DNA of 64,000 nt from Halococcoides cellulosivorans. Lineage in GTDB: Archaea; Halobacteriota; Halobacteria; Halobacteriales; Haloarculaceae. Positions 23,424 to 61,945 of this stretch are shown piece by piece (the first letter of the stretch is position 1; each line of letters begins with the position of its first letter). The position numbers and the translations under genes were made by a program. A model generated the notes under the pieces. That model saw only the letters and a program-made list of their open reading frames with translations, did no database searches and was not told the DNA's origin. The stretch is taken from positions 496,001-560,000 of the forward strand of contig NZ_CP028858.1 of the NCBI RefSeq assembly GCF_003058365.1, written 5' to 3'.

Positions 23424-25004
23424 ATGACACACGAATCACGCGATACGGGCCGAACAGGAACTTCTCGCCGCCGATTCCTGAAAGCTGCGGCGGGGTCGGG
23501 GGCACTCATCGCGACGGCCGGGGCGGGGGCCCTGGGCGGGGTGAACGCCGCCGATCACGGCATTCCGACGCCACAGCTGTCGGTGAGTGGCAACACGATC
23601 GTCGATCCCTCGGGCAACACCGTCAAACTCCGTGGGGTCAACATGGCCGACTCCAAGCGGCTCGACGTCACCGCGCCCGCACGGGGGATGACCGCGACAC
23701 AGGTCGTCGAGATGCTGACCGACGAATCGCGGGACTTCTACCCGCGGGTGATCCGGATTCCGGTCCAGCCGGTCGATATCGGTGAACACACGCCCGGATC
23801 GATCGACGGCGCACCCGAACCCGTCGCGTTCGACGAGGAGCAACTGCGGGACTACATCGACACGCACCTCCGGCCGGTCGTCGACACCGTCGCCGCGAAC
23901 AACGTCTACTGCATCCTGGACTATCACCGCCACTGGAAGCCCCTGGAGTGGGCCGAGGGCCAGACCGGCCCGATCAATCAGGACCTCCACGAGGAGGGAC
24001 TCCTGTTCTGGGACGTCGTTGCCGAGGAGTTCGGTGACGAGGACCACGTCCTCTTCGAGGTGTACAACGAACCGACCGAACCCGCGCTGTACGGCGGCCA
24101 GCCCAGCGACACGTGGGTCTGTGACCTCTGGAGCCTGTTCAAAGAGCAAGTCCAACCGTGGGTCGATACGATCCGCGAGCACTCGGGCAATCACGTCATC
24201 GTCGGGTCGCCCGGGTGGAGCCAGCACATCCAGGGCGTGCTCTGTGAGGAGTTCGACGGTGGGAACCTCTCCTATACCTACCACATCTACGCGGGCCACG
24301 CCGTCAGTCAGAATCAGGGCTGGGCGCTCGGCGAAGAGTCCGCGAAGGGCGGCGGGACCTACGGCGTCTACGAGCAGGTGCCGATGTTCGTCACCGAGTT
24401 CGGCTGGCAGAGTGATCTGACGATCCAAGACCACGGCTACGGGGCCGCGACCTACCTCAAGGGGACGACCGAGGAGTTCGGCAAGCCGTTCATGGAGTTT
24501 CTGGAGTCCAGCCCGGCGATCAACTGGACGGCGTGGTGTGCCGACCCGGTCTGGCTGCCCGCGATGTTCGACCTGGGCGACTGGGCCGGCGACGGCTACG
24601 TCGACTCGGTGGGCAACCCCTACGAGGACGAGATTCCGACCGAGTGCGAGGAGTTGCCCTGCGAGTGGGATCTCAAACCCGATCAGGCCGACATGGGCCA
24701 GTTCATCATGAGCACGCTCGCGGACAAGCGCGACGACATGATCCCCTCGGGCGAGATACCCGACACGACGACCACCACCCCGGGCGGCGAGACGCCCGAC
24801 TGGCCCGCGGGCGCGACCGACCCCGACGGCGACGGCCTGTACGAAGACCTCTCGGGTGACGGCGACCTGAACTTCCCGGACGTGAACCATCTCTTCCAGA
24901 ACTCCGATTCGAGTGCGGCACAGGCCAACACGCAGTTCTACGACTTCGATGGCGACGGCGACCTCGACTCCCAGGACGTGCTCGCGCTGTTCGAGTTGGT
25001 CTGA
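23424..25004 (+). CDS. Secreted GH5 endoglucanase/cellulase with dockerin-like C-terminus
   Basis: A 526-residue exported enzyme. The Tat signal is TSRRRFLKAAAGSGALIATA (residues about 11-30). The GH5 catalytic domain runs to about residue 440: GNTVKLRGVNMADS, YCILDYHRHWKPLEW, acid/base Glu216 in FEVYNEPTEP, and nucleophile Glu325 in MFVTEFGWQ. A Thr/Pro/Gly linker (near 455-470) leads to the dockerin-like module (about 473-526): TDPDGDGLYEDLSGDGDLNF and YDFDGDGDLDSQDVLALFEL, two Ca-loop repeats. Several Cys residues suggest a disulfide outside the cell. It belongs to the same subfamily as the enzyme at 37101 and opens the seven-enzyme cluster. Confidence 0.9.
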   Translation: MTHESRDTGRTGTSRRRFLKAAAGSGALIATAGAGALGGVNAADHGIPTPQLSVSGNTIVDPSGNTVKLRGVNMADSKRLDVTAPARGMTATQVVEMLTDESRDFYPRVIRIPVQPVDIGEHTPGSIDGAPEPVAFDEEQLRDYIDTHLRPVVDTVAANNVYCILDYHRHWKPLEWAEGQTGPINQDLHEEGLLFWDVVAEEFGDEDHVLFEVYNEPTEPALYGGQPSDTWVCDLWSLFKEQVQPWVDTIREHSGNHVIVGSPGWSQHIQGVLCEEFDGGNLSYTYHIYAGHAVSQNQGWALGEESAKGGGTYGVYEQVPMFVTEFGWQSDLTIQDHGYGAATYLKGTTEEFGKPFMEFLESSPAINWTAWCADPVWLPAMFDLGDWAGDGYVDSVGNPYEDEIPTECEELPCEWDLKPDQADMGQFIMSTLADKRDDMIPSGEIPDTTTTTPGGETPDWPAGATDPDGDGLYEDLSGDGDLNFPDVNHLFQNSDSSAAQANTQFYDFDGDGDLDSQDVLALFELV

Positions 25005-25106
25005 TCACACTGCGGGTCGAGTCACACCGGGAATGGGTCGCAATATCGCTTGCCTCGGGCGGTAGGAGTGTAGGACGGGCGCGCTCCGTCCGAGACGGTA
25101 TGCAGA

Positions 25107-25135
25107 TAATTTATGATGCCGAAGAACATAAATTA
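25107..25135. promoter_or_regulatory. AT-rich 9-bp inverted repeat upstream of the mannanase-like gene
   Basis: TAATTTATG and CATAAATTA form a perfect 9-bp inverted repeat with an 11-nt spacer, ending 44 nt before the ATG at 25180, in otherwise GC-rich DNA. Size and position suit a dimeric sugar-responsive regulator; the TrmB-family protein encoded at 27610 is a candidate, without direct evidence. Confidence 0.5.
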
Positions 25136-25179
25136 GCTGTACGCAGCACTGGCGAGGGGACCGTGCGTGTACGTCACAC

Positions 25180-27396
25180 ATGACAGTCCGAGATCACACT
25201 ACGTCCGACCGAGCAGAGCGGAACCGAACGACGCGACGAACCTTCTTGCGGGCGGCGGGTGCGACAGCGCTGGCGGCCGGCATCGGGACGGCCTCGCTGT
25301 CTGGCACTGCCGCGGCAGCACCGAACGACTCGTTCGTCGAGACCGACGGCGCACAGTTCGTCATCGACGGCGAGCCGGTCTATCTCAACGGGTCGAACAA
25401 CTTCTGGCTGATGGACACGTACTACGGGACGCCGTCGTTGCACGACACGGTGTTCTCGCTGTACGATCGCCTGGGGCTGAACTTCGTGCGGACCTGGGGG
25501 TTCAACGACGGCGAGAGCGAACACGGGCCCACCCTCCAGCCCTCACCGGGCGAATACAACGAGGAGGCCTTCGAGCGGTTCGACTCACTGGTCGCGAAAG
25601 CCGGCGAGTACGGCATCAAACTCGTGCTCCCGCTGGTCAACAACTGGGAGGAGTACGGCGGGAAAGGCCAGTACGTCAGTTGGGTTGACGGTGCGTCCAG
25701 CGGTGACGACTTCTACACCAACGAGGAGTGCAAACAGCTCTACAAGGACTACGTCGAGTACGTCCTCACGCGGGAGAACACGATCACTGGCGTCGAGTAC
25801 CGCAATGACCCGGCCATCGCCGTCTGGGAACTCGCGAACGAACCGCGGGCGTCGTCGCTCTCGGTCGAGGAGCTGACGGGCTGGGTCGAGGAGATGTCCG
25901 CCCACATCAAATCGATCGACTCCAATCACCTCGTCTCGACGGGCAGCGAGGGCTTTTACACCGGCGGCGAGCACGGCAGTTCGTATCCGTACCGCGCGAA
26001 CGAGGGCGTCGACTACGTCGCCCAACACCAGGTCGACACCATCGACTGCTGTTCGTACCACATGTACCCCATCGCGTGGAATCTTGGGGCGGACAACGGC
26101 AGTGACTGGATCGCTCAACACCACGTCGACGCTCAGGAGACCATCGGCAAGCCCGCTTACGCCGGCGAGTTCGGACTCTCGACGAGCGACGTCTCGATGA
26201 GCGAGCGGAACAGCTACTACCAGGACTGGTACGACACGCTCGACACCGAAGACGCCGCGGGCGCGATGGTCTGGCAGGTCGTCGACGGCTCTCGTGAGAG
26301 TCCGCCGCGACTCGACAGTCCGACCCATGGGATCTACGAGGACGACACCGAGACGCTCTCGATCGTCCAGGACTACGGCGCTCGGGCGCGTGCGAAATCG
26401 GGTACCGCCCTCGAACCCGACGCCCCGTCGGCCCCGACCGGCGTCGGCCTCTCCGGGCGGACCGACACCTCGATCGACGTGGTCTGGAACGCGACCGTCG
26501 GGTGGGGCGCGGGGGCGGACCACTACGCGGTCACCCTCGACGGTGAGGAGGCGACGACCCTCCCCGCGGGGACGACGTCGACGACCGTGACGGGCCTCGA
26601 TCCGTCGACCGAGTACACCCTCGCAGTCCGTGCGGTCGACGTGAACGGGACGCGTTCGGCCTCGAGCGAGACGGTGACGCTCGCGACGCTGCCGAGCGAG
26701 GTCTCGACGGTGGTCGACCCCTGTGCGGACACGAGTATGCTGGCAGAGGCGTCCGATCTGGACGCGCTCACGACCGACACGACCAACCCCGAGTACTTCG
26801 TCCGGCCGGACGGTGAGGCCGACGACGCCCGCATCAACCGGAGCGCCGCCGAGGACGTCGCGATGGTGTATCGCGTCGACGGGGACCTCCTCGATCTGGC
26901 CGTCGAGTTCCACGAGAACGCCTCCGAGGGCGGCGATATCGAGTACTACGAGTCGACCGACGGTGGGGCGAGTTGGCAGGCCGTCGAGGTCCGCCGGACC
27001 GAGTACAGCCCGCCGAGCAGCGGTGGCTGGTCGAGTCAGTTGCACTCGAAGACCGGGTTCTCCGAGGGTGTCGACCGCGTAAAACTCGTCCTCACTGGCG
27101 GGAGTGCCGCCTGGGCCGTCCAGGTCGGGACCGTCGAACTCACCGTCGGTGACGGCTCCGACGAGCCGGCGGCCCCGCCGGCCGTCGGCGGGAGTGCGAA
27201 CGCGCCGACCGATCCGGACGGCGACACGCTCTTCGAGGACGTCGACGGCGACGGTGAGCTGAACTTCCCGGACGTGAACACGCTGTTCCAGAACACCGAG
27301 TCGGCATCGGTCCAGGACAACGCCGGATTCTACGACTTCTCCGGCGACGGTGTCGTCGACATGCAGGACGTGCTCGCGCTGTTCGAGTTGGTCTGA
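25180..27396 (+). CDS. Secreted GH5 mannanase-like enzyme with Fn3, beta-sandwich and dockerin-like modules
   Basis: A 738-residue enzyme. The Tat signal is TTRRTFLRAAGATALAAGIG (about 17-36). The catalytic domain (about 48-400) begins like endo-1,4-beta-mannanases (VYLNGSNNFWLMDTYYG), with acid/base Glu221 in WELANEPR and nucleophile Glu330 in YAGEFGLS. A fibronectin type III domain follows (about 412-505: APTGVGLSGRTDTSIDVVWN, then YTLAVRAVDVNGTRSAS), then a beta-sandwich (about 510-655) possibly binding carbohydrate, then the dockerin-like module (about 672-738). Mannan is the likely substrate by family resemblance; cellulose is possible. A palindromic AT-rich element lies 44 nt upstream. 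Confidence 0.88.
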   Translation: MTVRDHTTSDRAERNRTTRRTFLRAAGATALAAGIGTASLSGTAAAAPNDSFVETDGAQFVIDGEPVYLNGSNNFWLMDTYYGTPSLHDTVFSLYDRLGLNFVRTWGFNDGESEHGPTLQPSPGEYNEEAFERFDSLVAKAGEYGIKLVLPLVNNWEEYGGKGQYVSWVDGASSGDDFYTNEECKQLYKDYVEYVLTRENTITGVEYRNDPAIAVWELANEPRASSLSVEELTGWVEEMSAHIKSIDSNHLVSTGSEGFYTGGEHGSSYPYRANEGVDYVAQHQVDTIDCCSYHMYPIAWNLGADNGSDWIAQHHVDAQETIGKPAYAGEFGLSTSDVSMSERNSYYQDWYDTLDTEDAAGAMVWQVVDGSRESPPRLDSPTHGIYEDDTETLSIVQDYGARARAKSGTALEPDAPSAPTGVGLSGRTDTSIDVVWNATVGWGAGADHYAVTLDGEEATTLPAGTTSTTVTGLDPSTEYTLAVRAVDVNGTRSASSETVTLATLPSEVSTVVDPCADTSMLAEASDLDALTTDTTNPEYFVRPDGEADDARINRSAAEDVAMVYRVDGDLLDLAVEFHENASEGGDIEYYESTDGGASWQAVEVRRTEYSPPSSGGWSSQLHSKTGFSEGVDRVKLVLTGGSAAWAVQVGTVELTVGDGSDEPAAPPAVGGSANAPTDPDGDTLFEDVDGDGELNFPDVNTLFQNTESASVQDNAGFYDFSGDGVVDMQDVLALFELV

Positions 27397-27477
27397 TCGA
27401 CCCGATCGATTCGACGCTCGCGTCTGCGCTCTGGAGCATCTGAATCCGGGTGCTGGCCGCCCTATCCACGTCGAAAT

Positions 27478-27540
27478 AATTTAATATTATCCTGGTTGAA
27501 TACTTTAAATATATATTTAAATTATAAAAAATACATTTGG
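27478..27540 (+). promoter_or_regulatory. AT-rich promoter region of the TrmB gene, with an 18-bp palindrome
   Basis: About 60 bp of nearly pure A+T stand in a GC-rich setting. At 27504-27521 is the perfect palindrome TTTAAATATATATTTAAA, directly followed by TTATAAAAAATACATTTGG, which contains a TATA-like box. The ATAAAAA-ACATTT core lies about 84 nt before the TrmB start codon; an equivalent ATAAAAACACATTT lies the same distance before the GH43 gene. An AT-rich palindrome over a promoter suggests autoregulation. Confidence 0.55.
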
Positions 27541-27609
27541 CTCTCGACCCCGTATCGACTGTGGACTGTGACAGAACCGTCCTGCGGCGTCACAGGGGAC
27601 ATTCGAGAG

Positions 27610-28695
27610 ATGACACGATCGCTCACAGAGGCGCTGACGCGCTGGGGATTCTCCGACACAGAGGTCGACGTCTACCTCGCCGCGCTGGAGGCGGGCCAGG
27701 CACCGGCCTCGGAGATCGCAGACACAGCAGACGTTTCGCGGCGTCACGTCTACCGCGTCAGTGAGCGACTGGCGGAGGTCGGCCTGGTCGACGTTCGAGA
27801 CCAGTATCAGCCGACACTCATCCGGGCGACGCCGTCGGAGGAGGTCGCCGAGATCATGCAGCGCCGCCAGAAGACGATCGTCACCGAGATCGACCAGCAC
27901 CGCGGCGGGCCGGACGAGCCGATCGGTGGCGTCGAGGTCATCAAACACACGGCCACCGTGCTCGACCGCACCCGATCACTGATCGCCGCGGCCGACGAGC
28001 TGGTGTTCGTGACCGCGCCAGCGGATCTCGTCGAACGGCTGGCCGAGGACCTGCAGGCGGCCCGCGAACGGGGAGTGATCGTCCTGGTGTTCACCGAAGA
28101 CGTCGCCGGGCTGTCGCAGCCGTTCGAGCAGATCGCGAGCGTCGTTCGGGTGCGCGAGGACTTCGACCTGTTCCACCAGTTCGCCCTGGCTGTCGACTCT
28201 TTCCGGGCGCTCGTCGGCACGCCCGAGGCTATGGACCATCACGCCGACGAGCGGTTCGGTCCGGCACTGGCAGTCGAGGGCGAGTACGTCACGCCCCGGA
28301 TCTGTGCGTCGTTTCTCGAATACGAGTGGAAGCTCGGCGTCGAGCGCGCCGTGCCCGAGCCAGTGTCGCTGCCCGCCACGTTCGAGGGGTTCACTCCGGC
28401 GGTCGTTCACGCTGCACTCCACCGTAGCGCAGGGACCGACCTCCACGCGACCGTCGTGACGCGCCCCATCGAGCGGGACCGCTCTGATCGCGACACCAGG
28501 ACCACGATCGAGGGCGCTGTCTCCGCGGTCCGACAGGGGATCGTGGAACCGTATCGGAAATCGTTCCTCTTCGAACAGTCGATGACGATCGATACCGACA
28601 CGGGTGAGGTGACCGTCGCCGGTCCGGGTGCGATGTTCGAAGACTTCGTCGCGACCAGGGTGACACTTCAGCGGGGCAGCGATGTGGACTCTTGA
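27610..28695 (+). CDS. TrmB-family transcriptional regulator
   Basis: A 361-residue regulator. The N-terminal winged helix (about 5-75: LTRWGFSDTEVDVYLAALEA, then SEIADTADVSRRHVYRVSER) is a TrmB DNA-binding domain. The C-terminal part (about 100-361) contains the PLD-like sugar-sensing region (TRSLIAAADELVFVTAPADL) and ends in a beta-rich module. TrmB proteins in haloarchaea control sugar uptake, glycolysis and gluconeogenesis. Placed in the middle of the glycoside hydrolase cluster, it is the likely local regulator. The ATG at 27610 is used; a TTG-initiated frame from 27496 runs through the AT-rich promoter and is rejected. Promoter and leader resemble those of the GH43 gene at 31428. Confidence 0.88.
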   Translation: MTRSLTEALTRWGFSDTEVDVYLAALEAGQAPASEIADTADVSRRHVYRVSERLAEVGLVDVRDQYQPTLIRATPSEEVAEIMQRRQKTIVTEIDQHRGGPDEPIGGVEVIKHTATVLDRTRSLIAAADELVFVTAPADLVERLAEDLQAARERGVIVLVFTEDVAGLSQPFEQIASVVRVREDFDLFHQFALAVDSFRALVGTPEAMDHHADERFGPALAVEGEYVTPRICASFLEYEWKLGVERAVPEPVSLPATFEGFTPAVVHAALHRSAGTDLHATVVTRPIERDRSDRDTRTTIEGAVSAVRQGIVEPYRKSFLFEQSMTIDTDTGEVTVAGPGAMFEDFVATRVTLQRGSDVDS

Positions 28696-29020
28696 GTCCC
28701 GATCGTCGCTCACCACGCCTGGCGACGGTCGATTCCCGTGGAGGGACGCGACGGTCGGGCCGTCGGGAGGCGGCGGCCGTGGGGGCGCGCACCTGAAACG
28801 GTCTTGGGGCCGTATCGATCCGGACGCGCCGCCGTCTCGACGGTGATCGGTCGGCCGTGTCGGTCACCTCCGGGCGGACTGACCCGAATCCCCGATTCGG
28901 ACAGCACGGACCGAACTGTGACGAACTACGTCGTCGGGAATCGCCGCGGCGTTTTTGTAACTCCCTGCCGGTCTACAATCACCGCCATGAACAGAGAAAG
29001 AAACGGCCGCGCGCGAGCCA
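28696..29020. other. Intergenic region, no supported gene
   Basis: Between the TrmB gene and the tandem repeat I see no convincing coding pattern. A short reading frame starts at an ATG at 28987 (MNRERNGRAR...) and continues into the repeat, giving a Pro/Thr/Ala-rich 75-residue peptide to 29214, but it lacks the acidic composition of haloarchaeal proteins. A weak AT-richer box (GCGTTTTTGTAAC, near 28950) could be a promoter for the downstream gene. Confidence 0.4.
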
Positions 29021-29190
29021 CGGGGACAGCGTCGACGCCCCCAGCGGCGACGGGGACAGCGTCGACGCCCCCAGCGGCGACGGGGACAGCGTCGACGGCC
29101 CCGGCGGCGACGGGGACAGCGTCGAGGCCCTCGACGGCGACGGGGACAGCACCGACGCCTTCGACGGCGGCGGAGACGGCGTCCTCGCGC
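29021..29190. repeat. 30-bp tandem repeat (minisatellite), about 5.7 copies
   Basis: The unit begins CGGGGACAGCGTCGACGCCC and is 30 bp long. Units start at 29021, 29051, 29081, 29111, 29141 and 29171; the first two are identical and later ones are progressively diverged. One frame encodes acidic repeats (GDGDSVDAPS type) and ends with a TGA that overlaps the GTG at 29198 used as a possible start by the next gene. Because the unit is 30 bp, copy-number change would not alter any reading frame. Confidence 0.9.
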
Positions 29191-29206
29191 TGGTCGGGTG
29201 ATACTC

Positions 29207-31246
29207 GTGTCTGACGAACCTGGCTTCGATCCGATAGAGCGCCGTGGGCTGTTGAGACGGCTCGGCGCTGGGAGTCTCTGCATGGCGGGGCTCACCGGCA
29301 CCGGACTCTCGGGGACCGCCGCCGGGCAGTCGGCCCAACCGACCGTGGACCTCGCGACACCCGTCCACCCGGCCCGACACGAGGCGTCTGGACTGCTCTA
29401 TGGGCTGAGCGCGGACGGCTCGGAGCCGTCGAGCGCGTGGCTCGAACCGATCGATCACGGCCTCCAGGTCGGCGGCGGCGCCCGAATCGCCAGTGGTGGC
29501 TGGGGAACGGCCGGAGAGAGCGGGTACGCGGCCCGCTGGGACTCGATCGTCCAGCAGTACGAGCGGGTCACGAGCGGTGGATCCGACGCCGAGTACTGCA
29601 TCCGGATGAGCGACCTGTGGGGGGCGGACGCCACGCAGGCCGACACCGACCCACACCCGGGTGACGACGGGGACTGGAGCAGCTATTACGACTTCCTCGA
29701 CCGGATCATGGACGACGTCGAGGCCGCCGGGATGGCGCGCGACGAGATCCAGTACGAGATCTGGAACGAACCGAACATCGATATTTTCTGGCCCCGATCC
29801 AGATCGCAGTACCACGAGATGTGGCAACACGGTGTCGAGCATATCCGGTCTCGACAGCCGGACGCCCGCATCGTCGGGCCGGGCCACACTCACTTCAGTC
29901 GGAATCTGATGGGCCAGTTTCTCGATATGACGGTCGAGACGGGGTCCGTGCCGGACATTCTCAACTGGCACGTCCTCCAGGCCAACAACGACGCAGTCGA
30001 GACGGCATCGGCGGTGCGGGACCTGTTGGCCGAGCGCGGTCTCGAACACCTCGACCTCGAAGTCAACGAGTACGTGCCCTCGGACCGGCAGAGTCCGGGC
30101 TACACGGCGTGGGATCTGGCTCGCGTCGAGAAGTCCGACATCGAGTACGCCGCACTGGGGAACTGGTCGTACTGTTGTGCGACGTCGGCGCTGTGTGCGA
30201 CGCTCACCGAGGACGGGGCGGCACCGACCGGGCGGTGGTGGCTGTACGCCCGGTACGGACAGACCAGGGGTGAGGTCGTCCGCACCGAGGCGACCGACAG
30301 CATCGACTCGGCGGCGAACTGTAATCCGGAGGAGACCCAGTCGCGGATCGTCGTGGGAAATCACGGCGTCTCGGGCCAGGTCGACCTGCGGATTCAGAAC
30401 CCTGACCGCATCAGCGACAGTCGCGTGCGGGTCAAAGTCGAGCGCCTACCCGACCAGGACGGCGGCGCGCTGCCAGCCCCGCTGGTCGCTCAGGACTACG
30501 TCACCGACGCCGGCAGCAATCATATGGTCGGCATCGACTGGTCGACACCGACCGACGCGTACGTCGTGACGGTCACGCCGGCGACGCCGGCGGTGCCGGA
30601 GGGCATCTATCGCATCGAGGCGGCCCACAGCGGTCACGTCCTCGGTGTCGCGGACGGGGCGACCGACGACGGCGCGGCCGTCACCCAGCAGGCCGATGCG
30701 GATGCTCGCCACCAGCGCTGGTCGCTCGACCACCTCGGAGACGGCGTCTACCGAATCGAGAACGTTGCTACCGGGAAGGTCCTGGACGTGGCGGACAGCG
30801 GTACCGAGAACGGGGCGACCGTCCACCAGTGGACCGACCTCGGCGCGGACAACCAGCGCTGGCACGTCGAACAGACCCGAAGCGACGTCTACAGGATCGA
30901 GGCGGTCCACAGCGGGAAGGTCCTCGATGTCGACGGGGGGTCCTCGGAGGCCGGCGCGACAGTCCACCAGTGGGTGGATCGGAGTGGCGACAATCAGCGC
31001 TGGCGCTTCGTCGCGGTCGAGAACGACCAGCCACCGACGCTGGGCGAGCGGGTGCCGACCGACCCGGACGGCGACGGCCTGTACGAAGACGTCAGTGGGA
31101 ACGGTCGGGTCGATTTCCCGGACGTGAACCTGCTCTTCCAGAACACCGACACCGCGGCCGTCCAGGACAACACGGCGTTCTACGACTTCTCCGACGACGG
31201 CACGGTCGATCCGCAGGACGTCCTCGCACTGTTCGAGATGGTCTGA
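29207..31246 (+). CDS. Secreted GH39-like glycoside hydrolase with ricin-type lectin and dockerin-like modules
   Basis: About 679 residues. A short twin-arginine signal is seen (IERRGLLRRLGAGSLCMAGL). The catalytic domain (about 45-460) looks like a clan GH-A enzyme: IQYEIWNEPNIDIFW with acid/base Glu188 and LDLEVNEYVPS with probable nucleophile Glu288, closest in feel to GH39 xylosidases. Next comes a ricin B/CBM13-type beta-trefoil (about 465-605) with three repeats ending NQRW or HQRW, and then the dockerin-like module (about 615-679). No ATG is available: GTG at 29207 or 29198 is the start. The family call is moderate; the secretion and modular layout are clear. Confidence 0.78.
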   Translation: MSDEPGFDPIERRGLLRRLGAGSLCMAGLTGTGLSGTAAGQSAQPTVDLATPVHPARHEASGLLYGLSADGSEPSSAWLEPIDHGLQVGGGARIASGGWGTAGESGYAARWDSIVQQYERVTSGGSDAEYCIRMSDLWGADATQADTDPHPGDDGDWSSYYDFLDRIMDDVEAAGMARDEIQYEIWNEPNIDIFWPRSRSQYHEMWQHGVEHIRSRQPDARIVGPGHTHFSRNLMGQFLDMTVETGSVPDILNWHVLQANNDAVETASAVRDLLAERGLEHLDLEVNEYVPSDRQSPGYTAWDLARVEKSDIEYAALGNWSYCCATSALCATLTEDGAAPTGRWWLYARYGQTRGEVVRTEATDSIDSAANCNPEETQSRIVVGNHGVSGQVDLRIQNPDRISDSRVRVKVERLPDQDGGALPAPLVAQDYVTDAGSNHMVGIDWSTPTDAYVVTVTPATPAVPEGIYRIEAAHSGHVLGVADGATDDGAAVTQQADADARHQRWSLDHLGDGVYRIENVATGKVLDVADSGTENGATVHQWTDLGADNQRWHVEQTRSDVYRIEAVHSGKVLDVDGGSSEAGATVHQWVDRSGDNQRWRFVAVENDQPPTLGERVPTDPDGDGLYEDVSGNGRVDFPDVNLLFQNTDTAAVQDNTAFYDFSDDGTVDPQDVLALFEMV

Positions 31247-31306
31247 TCGGTCGGTGTGCCTGATCGGCGGATCACACCGACGACCGCCGACGGGACGAAA
31301 ACATCG

Positions 31307-31427
31307 AACTTAACAATTTAAAATTATATTAATGTAGTTAAAAGATAAAAACACATTTCCGGGATGGAGTCGTACGTAAGTATCAGTCCGTGACGTCTCG
31401 TCATGGTGTCACAGGGGAATCCGAAAC
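31307..31427 (+). promoter_or_regulatory. AT-rich promoter and leader of the GH43 gene, similar to that of the TrmB gene
   Basis: AACTTAACAATTTAAAATTA and the following A+T run to about 31350 precede ATAAAAACACATTTCC, a TATA-like box about 85 nt before the ATG. The end of the leader reads GTGTCACAGGGGAATCCGAA then ACATGACACGA; the TrmB leader ends GCGTCACAGGGGACATTCGA then GAGATGACACGA. The shared promoter core, spacing and leader end suggest common origin and common control. Confidence 0.5.
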
Positions 31428-33272
31428 ATGACACGAGACACAGAATCCGAGCCGATAGCGGAATCGGCACCGACCGGCGAGGGTGAATCGACTTCGAAAT
31501 CGACTGTCGCGATGGCTCGCCGGGAGTATCTCCAGTCTGTCGGGGCCGTCGGCGCATTCGGCGTCGCCGCGTCGTGTGGTAGCGCGGCGGCCCAGAGCGC
31601 CGAGGAGACCACCTACGAGAATCCACTCCATGGCCCGGATTTCGCGGATCCGACGATCCATCGGGCCGAGGACGGCACCTGGTGGGCCTACGCCTCGAAC
31701 ATGAGCTACAGCGATCCGGCCAACGAGACGCTGGTGCCGATCCTCTCCTCGCCGGATCTGGTGAACTGGACCGAGGAGGGCGAGGCGTTCGCGTCCGAAC
31801 CGGGGTGGACCGAGGGGTCGATCTGGGCCCCCGACGTCCACTATCACGACGGCCAGTGGGTCCTCTTTTACTCGAAGTGGCCGGCCGACCGGGACGCCAA
31901 CGCGGACCAGACGGGCATCGGCGTCGCGACGGCCGACACCCCCGGCGGCCCGTTCACCGACCACGGAGCGCTGTTCACGAATCCCGACCACCCTTATCCC
32001 GGCAACACCATCGACCCCTATTTCGTCGCCCACGAGGGCACCCCTTACCTCTTCTGGGGCAACTTCGCGGGTATCTATCACGTCGAACTCACCGCCGACC
32101 TGCGCGACTACCGATCGGGAACCTTCGGACAGATCGTCGGGGGTGCCTACGAGGGCTCGACCATCTTCGAGCGCGACGGTACCTGGTACTATTTCGGCTC
32201 GACCGGGGACTGCTGTGACGGGTTCGACAGTACCTACGAGATCGAAGTCGGGCGCTCGGAGGACGGTCTGTTCGGGCCGTACTACGATCGCGAGGGGACG
32301 CCCATGATGGAGCGCGACGAGTGGAACGCCGGTCCGACCCACCTCGGGGACAACGACCGCTTCGTCGCACCGGGCCACGGCGACGTGACCGTCGACGACG
32401 CGGGCAACCACTGGTTCGTCTATCACGCCTACGACACCGAGGGCCCGGAGATCGCCGGCCAGTACGGCTGGCCACCCGCACGGCAGTTGTTCCTCGACCG
32501 TGTGTACTGGACCGACGACGGCTGGCCGGTCGTCGGCGGCGACGGCACGCCGAGTCTGACCGCGCCGGTCCCGAACCTGGGGCAGCGACCCGCGCCGATC
32601 GAGGACGGCACCTATCGGATCCGAAACGCCCGGAGCGGGCACGCACTGGCCGTCGAGAGCACCGACGCGGGCGCGAGTGCGATCGTGACGACCGACGACG
32701 CCGGTGCGCACGACGAGTGGATCGTCACCCGACTATCGGGCGGCGCGTACGTCGTCGAGAACGCGGAGTCCGGCCTCGCACTGGAGGTCGCGGACGCCGC
32801 CACCAGCGACGGGGCCGACGTTCAGCAGTGGCACCCGAACGGCCACCCGACCCAGCGGTGGACGCTCCTCGACGACGGCGACGGGTCCCGACTGTGGAAC
32901 GCCTGCGGGAATGCGGTCGGTGGGCGACAGGTAGCCGAGGTGGCGAACGCCTCGGAGTCGGCGGGCGCGACCGTCCAGCAGTGGACCGACAACGGCGGGA
33001 ACCACCAGCGCTGGGAGTTCGTGCCGGTCGACGACCCCACGACGCCCGGTGACGGACCCCCGGCGCTGGGCGAGCAGGTGCCGACCGATCCGGACGGCGA
33101 CGGCCTGTACGAGGACGTCTCGGGGGACGGCGACCTGAACTTCCCGGACGTGAACACGCTGTTCCAGCACACCGAGTCGGCGGCGGTCCAGGACGACGCC
33201 GCGTTCTACGACTTCTCCGGCGACGGTGTCGTCGACATGCAAGACGTGCTCGCGCTGTTCGAGATGGTCTGA
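31428..33272 (+). CDS. Secreted GH43 enzyme (xylosidase/arabinanase-like) with ricin-type and dockerin-like modules
   Basis: A 614-residue enzyme. The signal is Tat-like (MARREYLQSVGAVGAFGVAA, about 27-46). The five-bladed beta-propeller of GH43 spans about 60-385: catalytic base Asp74 in DFADPTIHR, pKa-modulating Asp196 in NTIDPYFV, and acid Glu242 in YEGSTIFERDG. A ricin/CBM13-type trefoil follows (about 393-540), then the dockerin-like module (about 550-614: PTDPDGDGLYEDVSGDGDLN and YDFSGDGVVDMQDVLALFEM). GH43 enzymes release arabinose or xylose from hemicellulose side chains or ends, complementing the two GH10 xylanases downstream. Confidence 0.9.
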   Translation: MTRDTESEPIAESAPTGEGESTSKSTVAMARREYLQSVGAVGAFGVAASCGSAAAQSAEETTYENPLHGPDFADPTIHRAEDGTWWAYASNMSYSDPANETLVPILSSPDLVNWTEEGEAFASEPGWTEGSIWAPDVHYHDGQWVLFYSKWPADRDANADQTGIGVATADTPGGPFTDHGALFTNPDHPYPGNTIDPYFVAHEGTPYLFWGNFAGIYHVELTADLRDYRSGTFGQIVGGAYEGSTIFERDGTWYYFGSTGDCCDGFDSTYEIEVGRSEDGLFGPYYDREGTPMMERDEWNAGPTHLGDNDRFVAPGHGDVTVDDAGNHWFVYHAYDTEGPEIAGQYGWPPARQLFLDRVYWTDDGWPVVGGDGTPSLTAPVPNLGQRPAPIEDGTYRIRNARSGHALAVESTDAGASAIVTTDDAGAHDEWIVTRLSGGAYVVENAESGLALEVADAATSDGADVQQWHPNGHPTQRWTLLDDGDGSRLWNACGNAVGGRQVAEVANASESAGATVQQWTDNGGNHQRWEFVPVDDPTTPGDGPPALGEQVPTDPDGDGLYEDVSGDGDLNFPDVNTLFQHTESAAVQDDAAFYDFSGDGVVDMQDVLALFEMV

Positions 33273-33473
33273 TCGGTCGACTCCGCGACGGCGCCATCCG
33301 AACGGTCGCGTGTGATCGCGAGCGTGTCTGGGTGAGCGTTTCGATGATTCCACTCCGAATTTTTCGCGGTGTCTGATTTCGAGGAAAAATCCTTTGGCGC
33401 CAGCTGTCGTATCGATGAACGAGTCCGTACAGAACCGGGTGGCGGGGGGAACGGACGTGAGACGACTCTGCAC

Positions 33474-35132
33474 ATGACACGAGATATCGAATCACCGGAT
33501 GGGGAGGAATCGACGACGGACGAGGACGGATCGACCGGGCGGGTCGACCGGCGGGACTACCTGCGCGCGATCGGGGGCCTCGGCATCGGGGGGCTGGGGA
33601 CGGCGGGCGTCGGTGCGCTGACCGGGACGGCCACGGCCCAGACGGCCTTCGACGAAAGCGCTGCCGACGAGCGCATTCGGGAGACTCAGACGGGCCCGCT
33701 CACCGTCGAGGTCGTCGACGAGAACGGCGACCCCGTGTCGGGCGCGTCGGTCGACGTCGAGATGACCGAACACGATTTCGACTGGGGCACGATGGTCAAC
33801 GCCGGGACGCTGCTCGATCGATTCGGGGAGGGCAGCGACTACCGCCAGTACCTCCAGGAACTGTTCAACACGGCCGTTCTGGAGAACATCCACAAGTGGG
33901 CCATCTGGGAGGGCAACATCCAACAGGCCGACGACGCCGTCGACTGGCTCGACGAGCACGGCTTTCGGATCCGCGGGCACACCTGTGTCTACGGCGTCGA
34001 CTACGCGATTCCGAACGACGTCCTCACGGCGGCTCAGAACGGTGACGGCCAGACCGTCCGCGACCGGACGATGGCCCACCTCCGGGAGATCATCACTCAC
34101 TACGGCGATCAGATCCAGGAGTGGGACGTCGTCAACGAGGCCGTCCACCGCGGGAAACTCCAGCAAGGCGAGTATTCGGGCGTCGATCCCGAGAACCCGA
34201 TGTCCAGCCAGACCAAGCCCTGGACGACCGATCTGCTGGCCGACTGGTATCGCGAGGCCGAGTCGGTGATCGAGGCAAACGGCCTCGACGTCGAGACCGC
34301 GACGAACGACTTCAACACGATGACGTGGGACCAGGACGAGTACTACGAACAGGTCCAGTTCCTCCTCGATCAGGGCATCGATCTGGACGCGATCGGCCAC
34401 CAGACCCACCTCGGATCGTCGACGAACCCATCGGGCCAGTCCTGGAGCTACGCGACGATCGACGCGGTCTTCGAGCGGTTCGCCGCGCTCGACGCCAACC
34501 AGCGGATCACCGAGTTCGACATGGCCGGTGACGGCTGGAGCGGGCAACAACAGCGCGCCGAGGCGTTCCGGGCCTTCCTCAAGACCGCCTACGGCCACCC
34601 CGATGTCGACCAGTTCGTGATGTGGGGGATGTGGGACGAGACGCACTGGCGCGACGAAGCGCCCTTCTTCGACGAGGACTGGTCCGAGAAACCTGCCCTC
34701 GACGTCTGGCGCACCCTCGTCCTCGACGAGTGGTGGACCGACGCCTCCGAGACGACCGCTGACGACGGGACCGCGACGGTCGACGCGTTCCTCGGTGAGC
34801 ACGACGTACGCGTCGAGACGAGCGACGGCACCACGGTCACGGAGACGGTCGCGGTCACCGACTCGTCCGCGGGCGCACGGATGACGGTCACCGTCGACGT
34901 GCCGACCACCGAGGGCCCGAACTGGGTGTCGGAGCCAGCGCCGACCGATCCGGACGGCGACGGCCTGTACGAGGACGTCTCGGGCGACGGTGACCTGAAC
35001 TTCCCGGACGTGAATCGGCTGTTCCAGACCACCGAGTCGACAGAGGTTCAGGACAACGCCGAGTATCTCGATTTCGACGGCGACGGCGACGTCGACATGC
35101 AGGACGTCCTCGCGCTGTTCGAGCGGGTCTGA
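33474..35132 (+). CDS. Secreted GH10 xylanase with dockerin-like C-terminus (copy 1)
   Basis: A 552-residue enzyme. The Tat signal is VDRRDYLRAIGGLGIGGLGT (about 22-41). A beta-sandwich N-terminal part (LTVEVVDENGDPVSGASVDV) leads into the GH10 barrel: HKWAIWEGNIQQADDAVDWL, RIRGHTCVY, acid/base Glu222 in WDVVNEAVHRG, the HQTHLGS strand, nucleophile Glu347 in RITEFDMAGD, and MWGMWDETHWRDEAPFF. A small beta domain (about 425-480) joins it to the dockerin-like module (about 490-552). GH10 enzymes cut beta-1,4-xylan internally. The next gene is a paralogue, only 85 bp away. Confidence 0.93.
   Translation: MTRDIESPDGEESTTDEDGSTGRVDRRDYLRAIGGLGIGGLGTAGVGALTGTATAQTAFDESAADERIRETQTGPLTVEVVDENGDPVSGASVDVEMTEHDFDWGTMVNAGTLLDRFGEGSDYRQYLQELFNTAVLENIHKWAIWEGNIQQADDAVDWLDEHGFRIRGHTCVYGVDYAIPNDVLTAAQNGDGQTVRDRTMAHLREIITHYGDQIQEWDVVNEAVHRGKLQQGEYSGVDPENPMSSQTKPWTTDLLADWYREAESVIEANGLDVETATNDFNTMTWDQDEYYEQVQFLLDQGIDLDAIGHQTHLGSSTNPSGQSWSYATIDAVFERFAALDANQRITEFDMAGDGWSGQQQRAEAFRAFLKTAYGHPDVDQFVMWGMWDETHWRDEAPFFDEDWSEKPALDVWRTLVLDEWWTDASETTADDGTATVDAFLGEHDVRVETSDGTTVTETVAVTDSSAGARMTVTVDVPTTEGPNWVSEPAPTDPDGDGLYEDVSGDGDLNFPDVNRLFQTTESTEVQDNAEYLDFDGDGDVDMQDVLALFERV
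34917..35132 (+). repeat. Long direct repeat encoding the dockerin-like end, copy in GH10-1
   Basis: These 216 bp, ending at the stop codon, are repeated at 36727-36942 at the end of the second GH10 gene. By eye there are about 11 differences, clearly fewer than in the catalytic parts of the two genes. Recent duplication or gene conversion of the terminal module is the simplest reading. Confidence 0.8.
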
Positions 35133-35217
35133 CCGACCCGAATCCGTCCCGACGGCACTCGATCGGACCGAATCGTGGTCTCGGAGGGGGGACCGACCGG
35201 CCACACGCGACTCACAG

Positions 35218-36942
35218 ATGACTCGAAACCACACCACGACAGATCCGGACGCACAGGTGACCACAGACGACGCCGACCGCGCAGCGACTGACGAATCACG
35301 CACCGACCCCGGGGGTGGCCGCGTCGACCGCCGGGACTACCTCCGCCTGATCGGCGGTGTCGGGATGGCCGGGGCCGCCGGGTCGATCGCTGGCCAGGCG
35401 ACGGCCCAGAGCGACGACTGGGAGGCCGCCGCCGACGAGCGCATTCGCGAGCACAGGCAGGGCCTGCTGACCGTCGCAGTCGTCGACGAGAACGGCCAGC
35501 CAGTGCCCGACGCGACCGTCGAGGTGGCGATGCAGTCTCACGACTACTGGTTCGGGTACGCGATGTCGGCGGACTTACTCGACCAGACCGACCCGGGCCA
35601 CCCCTATCGCGAGGCGCTGAAAGAGGACTTCAACGTCGTCTGGTTCGGGAACAACCACAAGTGGCGTTTCTTCGAGGAGAATCAGGAGCGTGCCGACCGC
35701 GCCACGGCGTGGGCGAAAGACAACGGCCTCGACATTCGGGGGCACGTCTGTCTGTGGGCCAACGTCAACGCCTGGCCGATTCCCGGCGACGTCGTCGACG
35801 CGATGGGCCTCGACCACCAGTCCGGCGAGAGCGGCCCCGACTTCGACGCCCAACACGTCGAGGACCGGAGCTTCGAGCACGTCCAGACGATCATCGACCA
35901 CTACGCCGACTTCGAGTACGACGGCACGTCGTATGGCTCCGTGATCGACGAGTGGGAGGTCATGAACGAGGTAGTCCACGAACCCGGATTCATCAAGGCC
36001 GTCAACGGGGTGCCGGCCCCCGACGACGCGCCCGACATCGACCCCGTCACCGATCCCGTGCTCGCGGACTACTACCAGCACGCCCGCGACGTCGCGCCCG
36101 ACGACGTGGGGCTGGCGGTCAACGACTACAACACGATGGAAGGGTCCTACGAGTACGCCCGCAGCGACTACGAGCGTCAGATCGAGTTTCTCGCCGCGAA
36201 CGGCCACCTCGATTACGTCGGGATCCAGAGTCACTTCACCGAGCAGAGTACGACGGTCTCGCCCCAGGAGGCCCTGGAGGTCCTCGATCGGTACGCCCAG
36301 CACGGCGTGCGCCTGCGCGTGACCGAGTACGACGCGACCGGCGACGACTGGTCCGACGACGAGAAGGCCGACTTCTTCGGTGACTATCTCAAAGCCGTGT
36401 TCAGTCACGAGGCGACCGACGCCTTCCTCACGGCGGGCGGGAGCGACGAACACCACTGGCGCGACGACGGGCCCTTCTTCTATGCGGGCTGGGACCCCAA
36501 GCCCGCCTACGAGGTGTATCAGAATCTGGTCTTCGACGAGTGGTGGACCGACACCGCCGAGACGACCGGTGAGGACGGGACCGCGACGGTCGACGCGTTC
36601 CTCGGCACCCACGAGGTGCGCGTCGAGACGACCGACGGCACCACGGTGACCGAGACTGTCTCGATCACCGACTCGGACGCCGGTCGACAGATCACGGTCA
36701 CCGTCGACGGATCGACCGCGGACGGTCCGAACTGGGTGTCGGAGCCAGCACCGACAGACCCGGACGGCGACGGCCTGTACGAGGACGTCTCGGGCGACGG
36801 TGACCTGAACTTCCCGGACGTGAATCGGCTGTTCCAGACCACCGAGTCGACAGAGGTCCAAGACAACGCCGAGTATCTCGATTTCGACGGCGACGGCGAC
36901 GCCGACCTCCAGGACGTGCTCGCGCTGTTCGAGATGGTCTGA
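35218..36942 (+). CDS. Secreted GH10 xylanase with dockerin-like C-terminus (copy 2)
   Basis: A 574-residue enzyme with Tat signal VDRRDYLRLIGGVGMAGAAG (about 38-57). After the N-terminal beta segment (LLTVAVVDENGQPVPDATVE) comes the GH10 barrel: HKWRFFEENQERADRATAWA, IRGHVCLWANVNAWP, acid/base Glu251 in WEVMNEVVHEPG, IQSHFTEQ, nucleophile Glu370 in RVTEYDATGD, and HHWRDDGPFFYAGW. The connecting beta domain and dockerin-like end closely match GH10 copy 1, while the catalytic domains differ much more, so the two enzymes probably have different xylan specificities. Confidence 0.93.
   Translation: MTRNHTTTDPDAQVTTDDADRAATDESRTDPGGGRVDRRDYLRLIGGVGMAGAAGSIAGQATAQSDDWEAAADERIREHRQGLLTVAVVDENGQPVPDATVEVAMQSHDYWFGYAMSADLLDQTDPGHPYREALKEDFNVVWFGNNHKWRFFEENQERADRATAWAKDNGLDIRGHVCLWANVNAWPIPGDVVDAMGLDHQSGESGPDFDAQHVEDRSFEHVQTIIDHYADFEYDGTSYGSVIDEWEVMNEVVHEPGFIKAVNGVPAPDDAPDIDPVTDPVLADYYQHARDVAPDDVGLAVNDYNTMEGSYEYARSDYERQIEFLAANGHLDYVGIQSHFTEQSTTVSPQEALEVLDRYAQHGVRLRVTEYDATGDDWSDDEKADFFGDYLKAVFSHEATDAFLTAGGSDEHHWRDDGPFFYAGWDPKPAYEVYQNLVFDEWWTDTAETTGEDGTATVDAFLGTHEVRVETTDGTTVTETVSITDSDAGRQITVTVDGSTADGPNWVSEPAPTDPDGDGLYEDVSGDGDLNFPDVNRLFQTTESTEVQDNAEYLDFDGDGDADLQDVLALFEMV
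36727..36942 (+). repeat. Long direct repeat encoding the dockerin-like end, copy in GH10-2
   Basis: Partner of the repeat at 34917-35132; it starts at CCGAACTGGGTGTCGGAGCC and runs to the stop. The differences cluster in the last 40 bp. Confidence 0.8.
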
Positions 36943-37100
36943 CGGGTCGGGCCGGGACGGACTGAGTCTGCGGGACGGATCGGCACAGTGGGGATCGTTC
37001 GATTCCGTCGGGAAAGATTTAATCACGCGTGAGGCTAACATGTAATGAACCAGGTCTGCGAGTCGGGGGGACGGGCGCGCAGACTGTGTGAAATTACACC

Positions 37101-38861
37101 ATGAACGACGACACCACACCACGATCGACCACGGGTGCATCGACCCAGGCGACCACCAGACGACGACTGCTGAAGGCCGCGGGCGCGGCCGCTGCGGGCA
37201 GTCTGGTCGGGGTCGGCCTGACGAACTCCGTCAGCGCCTCGTCGGTCGCGTCGGCCCCGCCGCGTCTGGAGCGGAAGAGCAGTTCGAGCAACCTGATCGT
37301 CGACCCGCAGGGCAACCGGGTGACGCTCCGTGGCGTCAACATCGTCGATCCGTGGCGGGCGGGCCGGGACGCCCCCTACTACAAGTTCAGGGGCGAGCGG
37401 TCGGTCCAGTTGGCGACCAACCACGACAACGGCTGGCACGCGAACATCATCCGCGTGCCGATGCAGCCCAACGACATCGCCCGGCAGGGCGCGGGATCGA
37501 TCGAACCCGGTGCGTACACCCAGGAGCAACTCGACAGCTACATCGAGAAGTACGTCGATCCGATCGTCGAGGAGTGTGCCTACCAGGGTGTGTACTGCAT
37601 TCTGGATTACCATCGGCACTGGCCGGACGGCCCGGACTGGGACCAGGCCGACCTCCACGAGGAGATCACCGACTTCTGGGACACCGTCGCGGCGCGGTAC
37701 GCCGAACAGGATCACGTCATCTTCGAGGTGTACAACGAGCCGACGACCCCGTACAACGGCGCCGGCTGTATCCAGGACTGCCCGGACGTCACCGACGATG
37801 GCTCCGAGCAGACCTGGCTCAACTGGCGCGAGACGGCTCAGCCGTGGGTCGATACGATCCGCCAGCACGCCTCGAACCTGACGATCATCGGGTCGCCCCG
37901 CTGGAGTCAGTGGACGCTCTGGGCGCCCGAACACGAGTTCGCGGGCGAGAACCTGGGCTACGTCGGGCACTTCTACACCCAGGAGGGCCTGCGCCCGCTG
38001 TCGACGTACTTCGGTGAGGCCTCCGAGCAGGTGCCCGTGTTCATCACGGAGTTCGGGTTCGGTGGCTCGGGCAGCCACATGAACGGCACGCGCGAGGAGC
38101 ACGGCCCCGAGTTCGCGGAGTTTTTCGACACCTACGACGCGGCCCACCCGATCGGCTGGTGTTTCGACTTCGACTGGGGCCCGCCGATGCTCGATCGGAG
38201 CTACGAGGTCGCCACCGAGTGGGGCGACTGGATGCAGTCGTTCCTCGCGGACAACTACGGGACGTACGCGCCCGCCGATCCGCATCCGAACGTCTCGGCG
38301 CCCGCCGCGCCCGGCGAGGTCGCACTCCTCCAGAAAGCCGACACCACCGTCGAGGTGGAGTGGCCCACCGTCGACGGGGCCGACGGCTACAACGTCTACG
38401 CGAATCAGGAGTTGCTCGGTCAGGTGAACGGGCCACCGATCGTCATCGGCGGCCTCGAACCCAGTTCGCAGGCCTGGATCGGCGTCACCGCGTACAACGA
38501 CGGTGGCTCCTCGGCGTACGTCGAGATTCCCGAGATCAACCTGCTCGGTGAGGGCGAGGGCCCCGACCTGACGCCCGACATCGGCGGTGACGCCGACCCC
38601 GAACCGCCGACCGACGAGACGCCGACCACGACCACGCCGACCGACGACGAGCCGACCTGGCCCGACGCACCGACCGATCCCGACGGCGACGGCCTGTACG
38701 AGGACCTCTCGGGCGACGGAACGGTGAACTTCCCGGACGTGAACACACTGTTCCAGAACTCCGATTCGGCTGCCGCCCAGGACAACGCGCAGTACTACGA
38801 CTTCGACGGCGACGGCACGCTCACGATGCAGGACGTCCTCGCGCTGTTCGAGACGGTCTGA
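37101..38861 (+). CDS. Secreted GH5 endoglucanase with Fn3 and dockerin-like modules
   Basis: A 586-residue enzyme. The Tat signal is TTRRRLLKAAGAAAAGSLVG (about 18-37). The GH5 domain (about 60-390) has RVTLRGVNIVDPW, YCILDYHRHWPDGPDW, acid/base Glu213 in FEVYNEPTTP, and nucleophile Glu317 in VFITEFGFGG. A fibronectin III-like domain follows (about 405-485: VALLQKADTTVEVEWPTVDG, ending AWIGVTAYNDGGSSAYVEIP), then a Pro/Thr/Glu linker (about 495-525), then the dockerin-like module (about 528-586). It is a paralogue of the GH5 enzyme at 23424, so related cellulases bracket the island. Confidence 0.9.
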   Translation: MNDDTTPRSTTGASTQATTRRRLLKAAGAAAAGSLVGVGLTNSVSASSVASAPPRLERKSSSSNLIVDPQGNRVTLRGVNIVDPWRAGRDAPYYKFRGERSVQLATNHDNGWHANIIRVPMQPNDIARQGAGSIEPGAYTQEQLDSYIEKYVDPIVEECAYQGVYCILDYHRHWPDGPDWDQADLHEEITDFWDTVAARYAEQDHVIFEVYNEPTTPYNGAGCIQDCPDVTDDGSEQTWLNWRETAQPWVDTIRQHASNLTIIGSPRWSQWTLWAPEHEFAGENLGYVGHFYTQEGLRPLSTYFGEASEQVPVFITEFGFGGSGSHMNGTREEHGPEFAEFFDTYDAAHPIGWCFDFDWGPPMLDRSYEVATEWGDWMQSFLADNYGTYAPADPHPNVSAPAAPGEVALLQKADTTVEVEWPTVDGADGYNVYANQELLGQVNGPPIVIGGLEPSSQAWIGVTAYNDGGSSAYVEIPEINLLGEGEGPDLTPDIGGDADPEPPTDETPTTTTPTDDEPTWPDAPTDPDGDGLYEDLSGDGTVNFPDVNTLFQNSDSAAAQDNAQYYDFDGDGTLTMQDVLALFETV

Positions 38862-60854: not shown

Positions 60855-61945
60855 GTTTCAGACGGACCCCTTGTGGGGTTGAAGCAGGTCCCGCGATGGC
60901 TGAAGCTGGCGGCGATCGCGTTTCAGACGGACCCCTTGTGGGGTTGAAGCGACGCCGACGAACGCGAGAAAATCGCAGAGGCCGCGTTTCAGACGGACCC
61001 CTTGTGGGGTTGAAGCAACTGCCTCAATGACCTAGGGACCGACGGCGTGAGGGGTTTCAGACGGACCCCTTGTGGGGTTGAAGCGCTATCCATCGATTCA
61101 AGGTCTTTAGTCATAACCATAGTTTCAGACGGACTCCTTGTGGGGTTGAAGCGGCTTTACGTCCGACGAAATCGAACCGCCGAACGAGTTTCAGACGGAC
61201 CCCTTGTGGGGTTGAAGCGGGGTCGGTGCCGCCGCCTGGCGTGGCAACGCTCGTTTCAGACGGACCCCTTGTGGGGTTGAAGCCGTCTCGGGATCGGGGT
61301 TGCGGCCGGTGACCTGGTTTCAGACGGACCCCTTGTGGGGTTGAAGCACCGCCTGAGATTCCTGCCCGCTCAGGTCGTCGTGATGTTTCAGACGGACCCC
61401 TTGTGGGGTTGAAGCGAGGTCGGGGAGACCTACTCCGCGAGCAATCTGACGGGTTTCAGACGGACCCCTTGTGGGGTTGAAGCACCGAGTCTCGGCCGGT
61501 CGAGACGATGACCGTGCGGTTTCAGACGGACCCCTTGTGGGGTTGAAGCGTCACGGGTGACCAGTGATGTCGTGGACTGTTGTCGTTTCAGACGGACCCC
61601 TTGTGGGGTTGAAGCCCTCTTTGGGATCTTTTTCCGTAAAAGACCCATAAGTTTCAGACGGACCCCTTGTGGGGTTGAAGCCGAATCAGGTCGAGCAGGC
61701 TGTGGTACAGTTCGCGGTTTCAGACGGACCCCTTGTGGGGTTGAAGCATAACTGAACACCCGTAGGAAAACCTACGGTAAAAGTTTCAGACGGACCCCTT
61801 GTGGGGTTGAAGCGCAGGAGACGATCGCCGCAGCCTACCACGCACTGCGTTTCAGACGGACCCCTTGTGGGGTTGAAGCGGCCCCTGGAACTCGATCGCC
61901 ATGCGAGTGTCCTGGTTTCAGACGGACCCCTTGTGGGGTTGAAGC
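60855..61945 (+). CRISPR. CRISPR array, 17 repeats of 31 bp and 16 spacers, type I-B-like
   Basis: The repeat starts GTTTCAGACGGACCCCTTGT and ends GGGGTTGAAGC. It contains a small hairpin CCCC-TTGT-GGGG. Repeats begin at 60855, 60920, 60986, 61054, 61122, 61188, 61253, 61317, 61385, 61453, 61519, 61585, 61651, 61717, 61783, 61849 and 61915. Only repeat 5 has a change (C to T at 61135). Spacers are 33-37 bp and all different. After the last repeat the sequence CGTCGGGTTGAAGTACC (about 61961-61977) looks like a decayed further repeat end. No cas gene is present within the window, neither upstream nor in the 2 kb downstream. Confidence 0.98.

Follow-up and report, generated by a model that had tools for sequence, protein, structure and literature searches.

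In a halophilic archaeon that grows on cellulose, a tandem array of 30-bp units stands immediately in front of the gene for a secreted, GH39-like enzyme. The array is a genuine minisatellite and is probably part of the 5' leader of that gene. As to how it came about, the reading we favor, at roughly even confidence, is that of a coding relic with a broken frame, for which the tail of a dockerin gene would be the likeliest source, while the enzyme would be translated from GTG 29207 with its own Shine-Dalgarno (SD) sequence. The locus demands no new mechanism, and a relic is likelier than a new kind of control element. Positions are those of the window, the whole 64,000-nt stretch analyzed, which comprises bases 496001–560000 of a single-contig chromosome of 2,723,120 bases and has a GC content of 65.8%.

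In the favored reading, transcription would start near nt 28981 from the promoter at 28945–28958, placing the array in the transcribed leader and outside the enzyme. The repeat would have arisen in DNA that formerly coded in the acidic GDGDS frame, presumably the tail of a dockerin gene left before the enzyme in a head-to-tail run of dockerin genes. This relic would have been cut off from any start codon and then expanded by slippage. The features concerned are as follows.

27496–28695, plus strand: TrmB-type sugar-sensing regulator, the upstream neighbor, not part of the repeat (PF11495, E 3.8e-30)
28945–28958, plus strand: best BRE/TATA-like promoter site (CGCGGCGTTTTTGT; PWM 8.68 bits; predicted transcript start about 28981)
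28987–29214, plus strand: leader ORF of 75 codons, MNRERNGRARA and then TGTASTPPAA-type repeats, from ATG 28987 to the stop TGA 29212–29214, with an 8-nt overlap with GTG 29207
29020–29183, plus strand: 30-bp tandem array, 5.5 copies by Tandem Repeats Finder
29022–29201, plus strand: acidic frame, GDSVDAPSGDGDSVDAPS...GGGDGVLALVG and stop, with coding-like codon phase and no usable start codon
29161–29201, plus strand: tail resembling a dockerin 3' end, FDGGGDGVLALVG and stop, against FDGDGDVDMQDVLALFEMV and stop, from DNA alignment to dockerin ends
29196–29202, plus strand: SD-like GGGTGAT before GTG 29207, duplex −9.4 kcal/mol
29207–31246, plus strand: secreted enzyme gene with Tat-type signal (MSDEPGFDPIERRGLLRRLGAG), GH39-like catalytic domain, ricin-type lectin and dockerin; proposed start GTG 29207

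The 30-bp array

The initial annotation described nearly six 30-bp units before the enzyme gene. Tandem Repeats Finder bears this out, with period 30, 5.5 copies, 88% matches and a score of 230. Minisatellites, or VNTRs, are defined as at least three head-to-tail units of 10–60 bp, and the array, with 5.5 units of 30 bp at 88% matches, belongs to this class. Compared with unit 1, unit 2 is identical, unit 3 differs at 2 bases, unit 4 at 4 and unit 5 at 6 (12 in total). The array thus resembles a prokaryotic minisatellite in a gene leader in that its units lie head to tail, are most similar at one end and adjoin the start of a gene. It differs in being known here from one strain, and in that copy changes of 30 bp preserve every frame, which rules out a phase-variable frame switch of the gene.

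The array, with 110 of 120 bases matching at a lag of 30, is the sole site in 464 kb of the same chromosome that reaches at least 85 of 120. A shorter 30-bp repeat of 1.9 copies is found elsewhere on the chromosome (L047:13433–13489). A different tandem array, with a perfect 57-base periodicity (120/120), lies at 247798 relative to the window start (genome ~743800). When the array DNA was searched against its own genome, a single other match was obtained (E 4e-4, 78% over 54 query bases), and a mobile or dispersed repeat was rejected on this ground. That match falls within a gene that we take to encode an ABC-transporter ATPase. In the family, the same search gives matches in 120 of 146 genomes, its own included. 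The best four foreign loci comprise one in an ordinary ORF and three further stretches that are acidic or of low complexity, which argues against an array common to relatives. GDGDS-like repeats do recur in other genomes of the family; one of them (L099) has an acidic repeat, reading VDGDSVDGDSVD in one frame, with 83% identity over ~80 bases, and is probably convergent.

A structured RNA element is supported neither by folding nor by Rfam. The fold of the array has a z-score of −1.19, with 28 of 200 shuffles folding equally well, and that of a single unit a z-score of 0.24. The Rfam search returned no credible match, only a miRNA match at 19 bits against a cut-off of 69.

The transcript and the start of the enzyme

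The promoter matrix was trained on 206 upstream regions of the same chromosome and scanned over 28651–29210. The site at 28945–28958 is the best in the scan, at 8.68 bits; a score this high turns up in 0.7% of 4,000 random stretches, each represented by the best of 20 positions, and in 18% of the 206 genes. The motif starts at −42 from ATG 28987, and the commonest positions in genes are −36 and −37. Before GTG 29198 or GTG 29207 the best site has 1.5 bits, an average value matched by 54% of random stretches. Because the only good promoter predicts a start upstream of the repeat, near 28981 by the usual spacing, the array is probably in the leader.

Going upstream, the first stop in the enzyme frame is TGA 28988. 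The first ATG of the frame (29282) lies past the twin-arginine motif MSDEPGFDPIERRGLLRRLGAG, which was recognized by eye, and the initial annotation was right that the gene lacks an ATG start. Three candidate starts precede this ATG: GTG 29198, GTG 29207 and TTG 29252. GTG 29198 had been named as the start, and the second in-frame GTG at 29207, with GGGTGAT in front of it, had been overlooked. Duplex energies were computed with an assumed anti-SD sequence. The −9.4 kcal/mol at GTG 29207 is matched by 1.1% of 3,000 random 16-mers and by 12.5% of 64 GTG-start genes, whereas GTG 29198 has only −2.7 kcal/mol, a median value. The median gene of the region has an SD no stronger than in random sequence; strong ones are commoner before GTG starts, for which the tenth percentile of the 64 genes is −9.6 against −6.4 in random sequence. 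From GTG 29207 the twin-arginine motif follows after 11 residues, compared with 13 in three orthologues (L034–L036). Since the SD match precedes 29207 only and the resulting signal peptide has about the orthologue length, GTG 29207 is the likely start and GTG 29198 probably is not. For the same reason of length, the N-terminal extension lost by frameshift that had been suggested is not needed, and translation from GTG 29207 appears to give a complete enzyme. For this secreted carbohydrate-active enzyme the probable start is thereby corrected.

For the catalytic domain, matches to 5u22 (E 2.8e-22) and 8uwt (E 5.5e-22) show a resemblance to GH39 and GH5-39-like glycosidases such as these β-xylosidases, yet the enzyme stays below the Pfam GH39 cut-off (PF01229, 22.2 against 26 bits). 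Matches to the enzyme at E ≤ 1e-20 occur in five of 392 genomes of the order and five of 146 of the family, its own included and one being a fragment. Among named genomes the scan found four loci: the three haloarchaeal orthologues and one on a Chloroflexi contig, where the ORF runs off its contig. No upstream array was seen by eye in the three haloarchaeal orthologues, and a dockerin is absent from all three. In Actinarchaeum halophilum and strain YIM A00013 the orthologue stops after the lectin, and in Halorhabdus amylolytica it stops sooner. A related genome (G336) carries a GH39-like gene fragment with pieces in different frames (L037:1501–1764), apparently a pseudogene.

The orthologues bear on another history of the start codon. 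ATG 28987 could be the former start of the enzyme, split from it when a repeat-bearing insertion in the n-region of the signal peptide broke the frame, with GTG 29207 recruited later. The residues MNRERNGRARA match the orthologue L034 (MVNNRRNGNSTIS) better than does any N-terminus predicted in the home region (0 of 388 as high). In L034 and L035, moreover, the enzyme starts similarly close after an AT-rich, promoter-like stretch, judged by eye. The other two orthologues are not matched in this way, 145 and 66 of the 388 N-termini being as high; the comparison covers only about 11 residues and was made with three orthologues in all. We regard this history as unlikely. The 388 genes come from a simple in-house gene caller, with approximate starts, and the acidic ORF stays among them in the SD, N-terminus and stop-geometry counts.

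Reading frames through the array

A codon log-odds score was trained on 171 long ORFs. Within the array the acidic frame scores +0.68 bits/codon, compared with 0.35 (sd 0.20) for real-gene windows, and it alone has a coding phase on the plus strand; the other two plus-strand frames score −0.37 (the frame of ATG 28987) and −1.05 bits/codon. GC by codon position in the acidic frame is 0.85/0.54/0.98. Each of five 20-codon windows along it is matched by 0.14–1.04% of 6,222 intergenic windows. The initial annotation had the GDGDSVDAPS frame end in a TGA overlapping GTG 29198, and this stop is indeed found at 29199–29201. Of ATG, GTG and TTG codons the frame has just one, GTG 28857, and transcription is predicted to start some 120 nt downstream of it.

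The differences between units fall at first, second and third acidic-frame codon positions 5, 6 and 1 times, and with 11 of 12 at the first two positions there is no sign of selection on the acidic peptide. Neither the acidic frame nor the frame of ATG 28987 has a Pfam match at E ≤ 0.001. In the 145 other genomes of the family the acidic peptide has no homologue at E ≤ 1e-4 (home genome only, 1 of 146); its next match in the own genome, at E 0.04, overlaps a dockerin gene. The coding-like phase, the missing start codon and the pattern of unit differences together make the acidic frame look like former coding DNA under no present selection for its peptide.

A live gene for a small acidic peptide would require an indel in the assembly, such that ATG 28987 leads into the GDGDS frame. 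Of the plus-strand frames the acidic one has the best coding phase, and its stop, 5 nt before GTG 29207, would suit such a gene. Given the single-contig genome and the lack of acidic-peptide homologues in the family, we judge this very unlikely.

On the minus strand a frame over the array is also coding-like, its total being +21 bits where the acidic frame reaches +34. It is open for 121 codons (28926–29291), and its first start codon is at 29021, the far end of the array.

The initial annotation also proposed a small translated leader that couples translation to the enzyme. The acidic frame, without a usable start, does not lend itself to this, but the third-frame ORF from ATG 28987, which runs through the array and had been overlooked, possibly could. 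ATG 28987 lies ~6 nt after the predicted transcript start. Ribosomes would initiate there on a nearly leaderless transcript, read the TGTASTPPAA frame across the array to TGA 29212–29214 and reinitiate at GTG 29207. In Haloferax volcanii, 72% of protein-coding transcripts are given as leaderless, defined as 0–5 nt (PMC4983044), and the 6 nt predicted here are just outside this definition. For the same organism 62 gene pairs are given as overlapping by 8 nt, and stop-to-start distances of −8 to +6 nt are stated to allow efficient termination-reinitiation (PMC10666635). The distance between TGA 29212–29214 and GTG 29207, −8 nt, is inside this range, and the 8-nt overlap, the SD and the haloarchaeal host are consistent with termination-reinitiation as described for overlapping pairs of H. 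volcanii (PMC6728339, PMC10666635). Unlike in those pairs, the upstream ORF here is a repeat with no coding signature in its own frame rather than a conserved gene, and any coupling is predicted. The geometry is also frequent: at 200 of the 388 predicted starts of the region a stop in another frame lies at −8 to +6 nt, and at 12 of 388 at exactly −8, so the overlap is poor evidence for coupling. The negative codon score of the ORF gives no sign of selection for its peptide, and the SD at GTG 29207 can work alone. We hold this translated leader to be doubtful; it can be combined with the coding-relic origin of the repeat.

If the ORF were coupled, slippage in 10-codon steps could alter the length of the leader with the frame intact and tune synthesis of the glycosidase stepwise. 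Such a leader would be a step-wise control knob in an archaeal gene, an idea to which we attach hardly any probability. The array also offers a natural setting in which to learn whether a leader ORF that carries repeats affects haloarchaeal translation.

Dockerin likeness of the tail

Around the array, genes for secreted enzymes that carry a C-terminal dockerin follow one another head to tail. With the enzyme as query, 71 matches were found on the chromosome, its own included; 70 of them reach the dockerin end and one covers the lectin only. The 70 correspond to 70 ORFs, three of which run off the fetched stretch and were dropped, leaving 67 complete 3' ends for comparison. Thus about 70 dockerin ORFs are found on the 2.7-Mb chromosome, most ending in DVLALFE-V or nearly so, and those arranged head to tail near the array are at window positions 23541–38861. 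The upstream TrmB-type regulator also matches NF047392 (E 6.8e-23), under the curated cut-off. Farther along the window, 61 kb in, positions 60855–61615 have the look of a CRISPR-like array, with the repeat GTTTCAGACGGACCCCTTGTGGGGTTGAAGC and a period of ~66.

The tail at 29161–29201 was noticed to resemble dockerin ends before the likeness was tested statistically. In the best alignments it reads TCGACGGCGGCGGAGAC and, after a gap of 12 bases (6 bases in one alignment of four), GGCGTCCTCGCGCTG, and the dockerin frame is kept. Like the type I dockerin ends of its own genome it has FDGGGDG-VLAL-VG and a stop, with an identity of 12 bases and a gap of whole codons, whereas counterparts of VDMQ and FEM are missing, and it is not a working dockerin. 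A type I dockerin has two calcium-loop repeats detectable by profile, and for the acidic frame Pfam returns none at the threshold used.

Several comparisons favor the likeness. The mean score of the tail against the 67 dockerin ends, 25.7, is reached by none of 368 other gene 3' ends, none of 5,739 random coding windows and none of 788 windows chosen for high G/D and GC content; the acidic frame had itself been called as a gene and was excluded from the controls on gene ends, coding windows and intergenic windows. Codon shuffles of the tail never score as high (0 of 500, against the first 40 of the 67 dockerins). On both strands of the 464 kb, nine copies of the 12-mer GTCCTCGCGCTG were counted, eight in dockerin ends and one in the tail.

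Other comparisons are less favorable. The mean score of the tail is reached at two intergenic sites (5 of 13,316 windows), and its best single score of 35 by 17 of the 5,739 coding windows. Of random coding stretches, 0.8% give alignments to the tail as good as that of the median dockerin. Seven other sites in the 464 kb reach at least 32, four of them dockerin ends and three not, and the top one, in an unrelated gene, has 41 against 35 for the tail. By a protein profile built from the 67 dockerins, homology is not significant for the whole acidic peptide (−1.4 bits, with 907 of 5,000 shuffles as high) and marginal for its last 30 residues (169 of 5,000).

These comparisons matter for the opposing reading, in which the array is a slippage product of non-coding DNA and both its coding phase and its dockerin likeness come about by chance from a GC-rich GACG/GTCGAC repeat. 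The unit contains an imperfect 15-base sub-repeat, and acidic repeats made of similar DNA have appeared in other genomes of the family. The coding-like frame on the minus strand, the chance intergenic sites that match dockerin ends equally well, the unremarkable RNA fold and the want of a credible Rfam match also agree with it. Against it, the coding-like score of the acidic frame and the dockerin likeness both continue into the non-repeated tail at 29184–29201. We consider a purely non-coding origin possible but not probable.

For the relic we favor, a dockerin-gene tail is the likeliest source, because the sequence up to the stop codon resembles a degenerate dockerin 3' end; whether the tail in fact stems from a dockerin we put at about even odds. 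If it does, the array would record that, between dockerin genes in tandem, a gene decayed and slippage took place, and otherwise it would be an ordinary repeat.

The chromosome also has two adjacent ORFs, L103:538–2046 and L103:2055–2681 (genome 2197182–2198077), with cohesin matches of 53.6 and 46.8 bits against a Pfam cut-off of 24.1; the same search was over the cut-off in one of 14 control genomes. Together with the ~70 dockerin ORFs, they look like a small cohesin-dockerin set in an archaeon. By eye, the first of the two also has a dockerin-like end, and the second has a Thr/Ser-rich stretch and a hydrophobic tail at its end.
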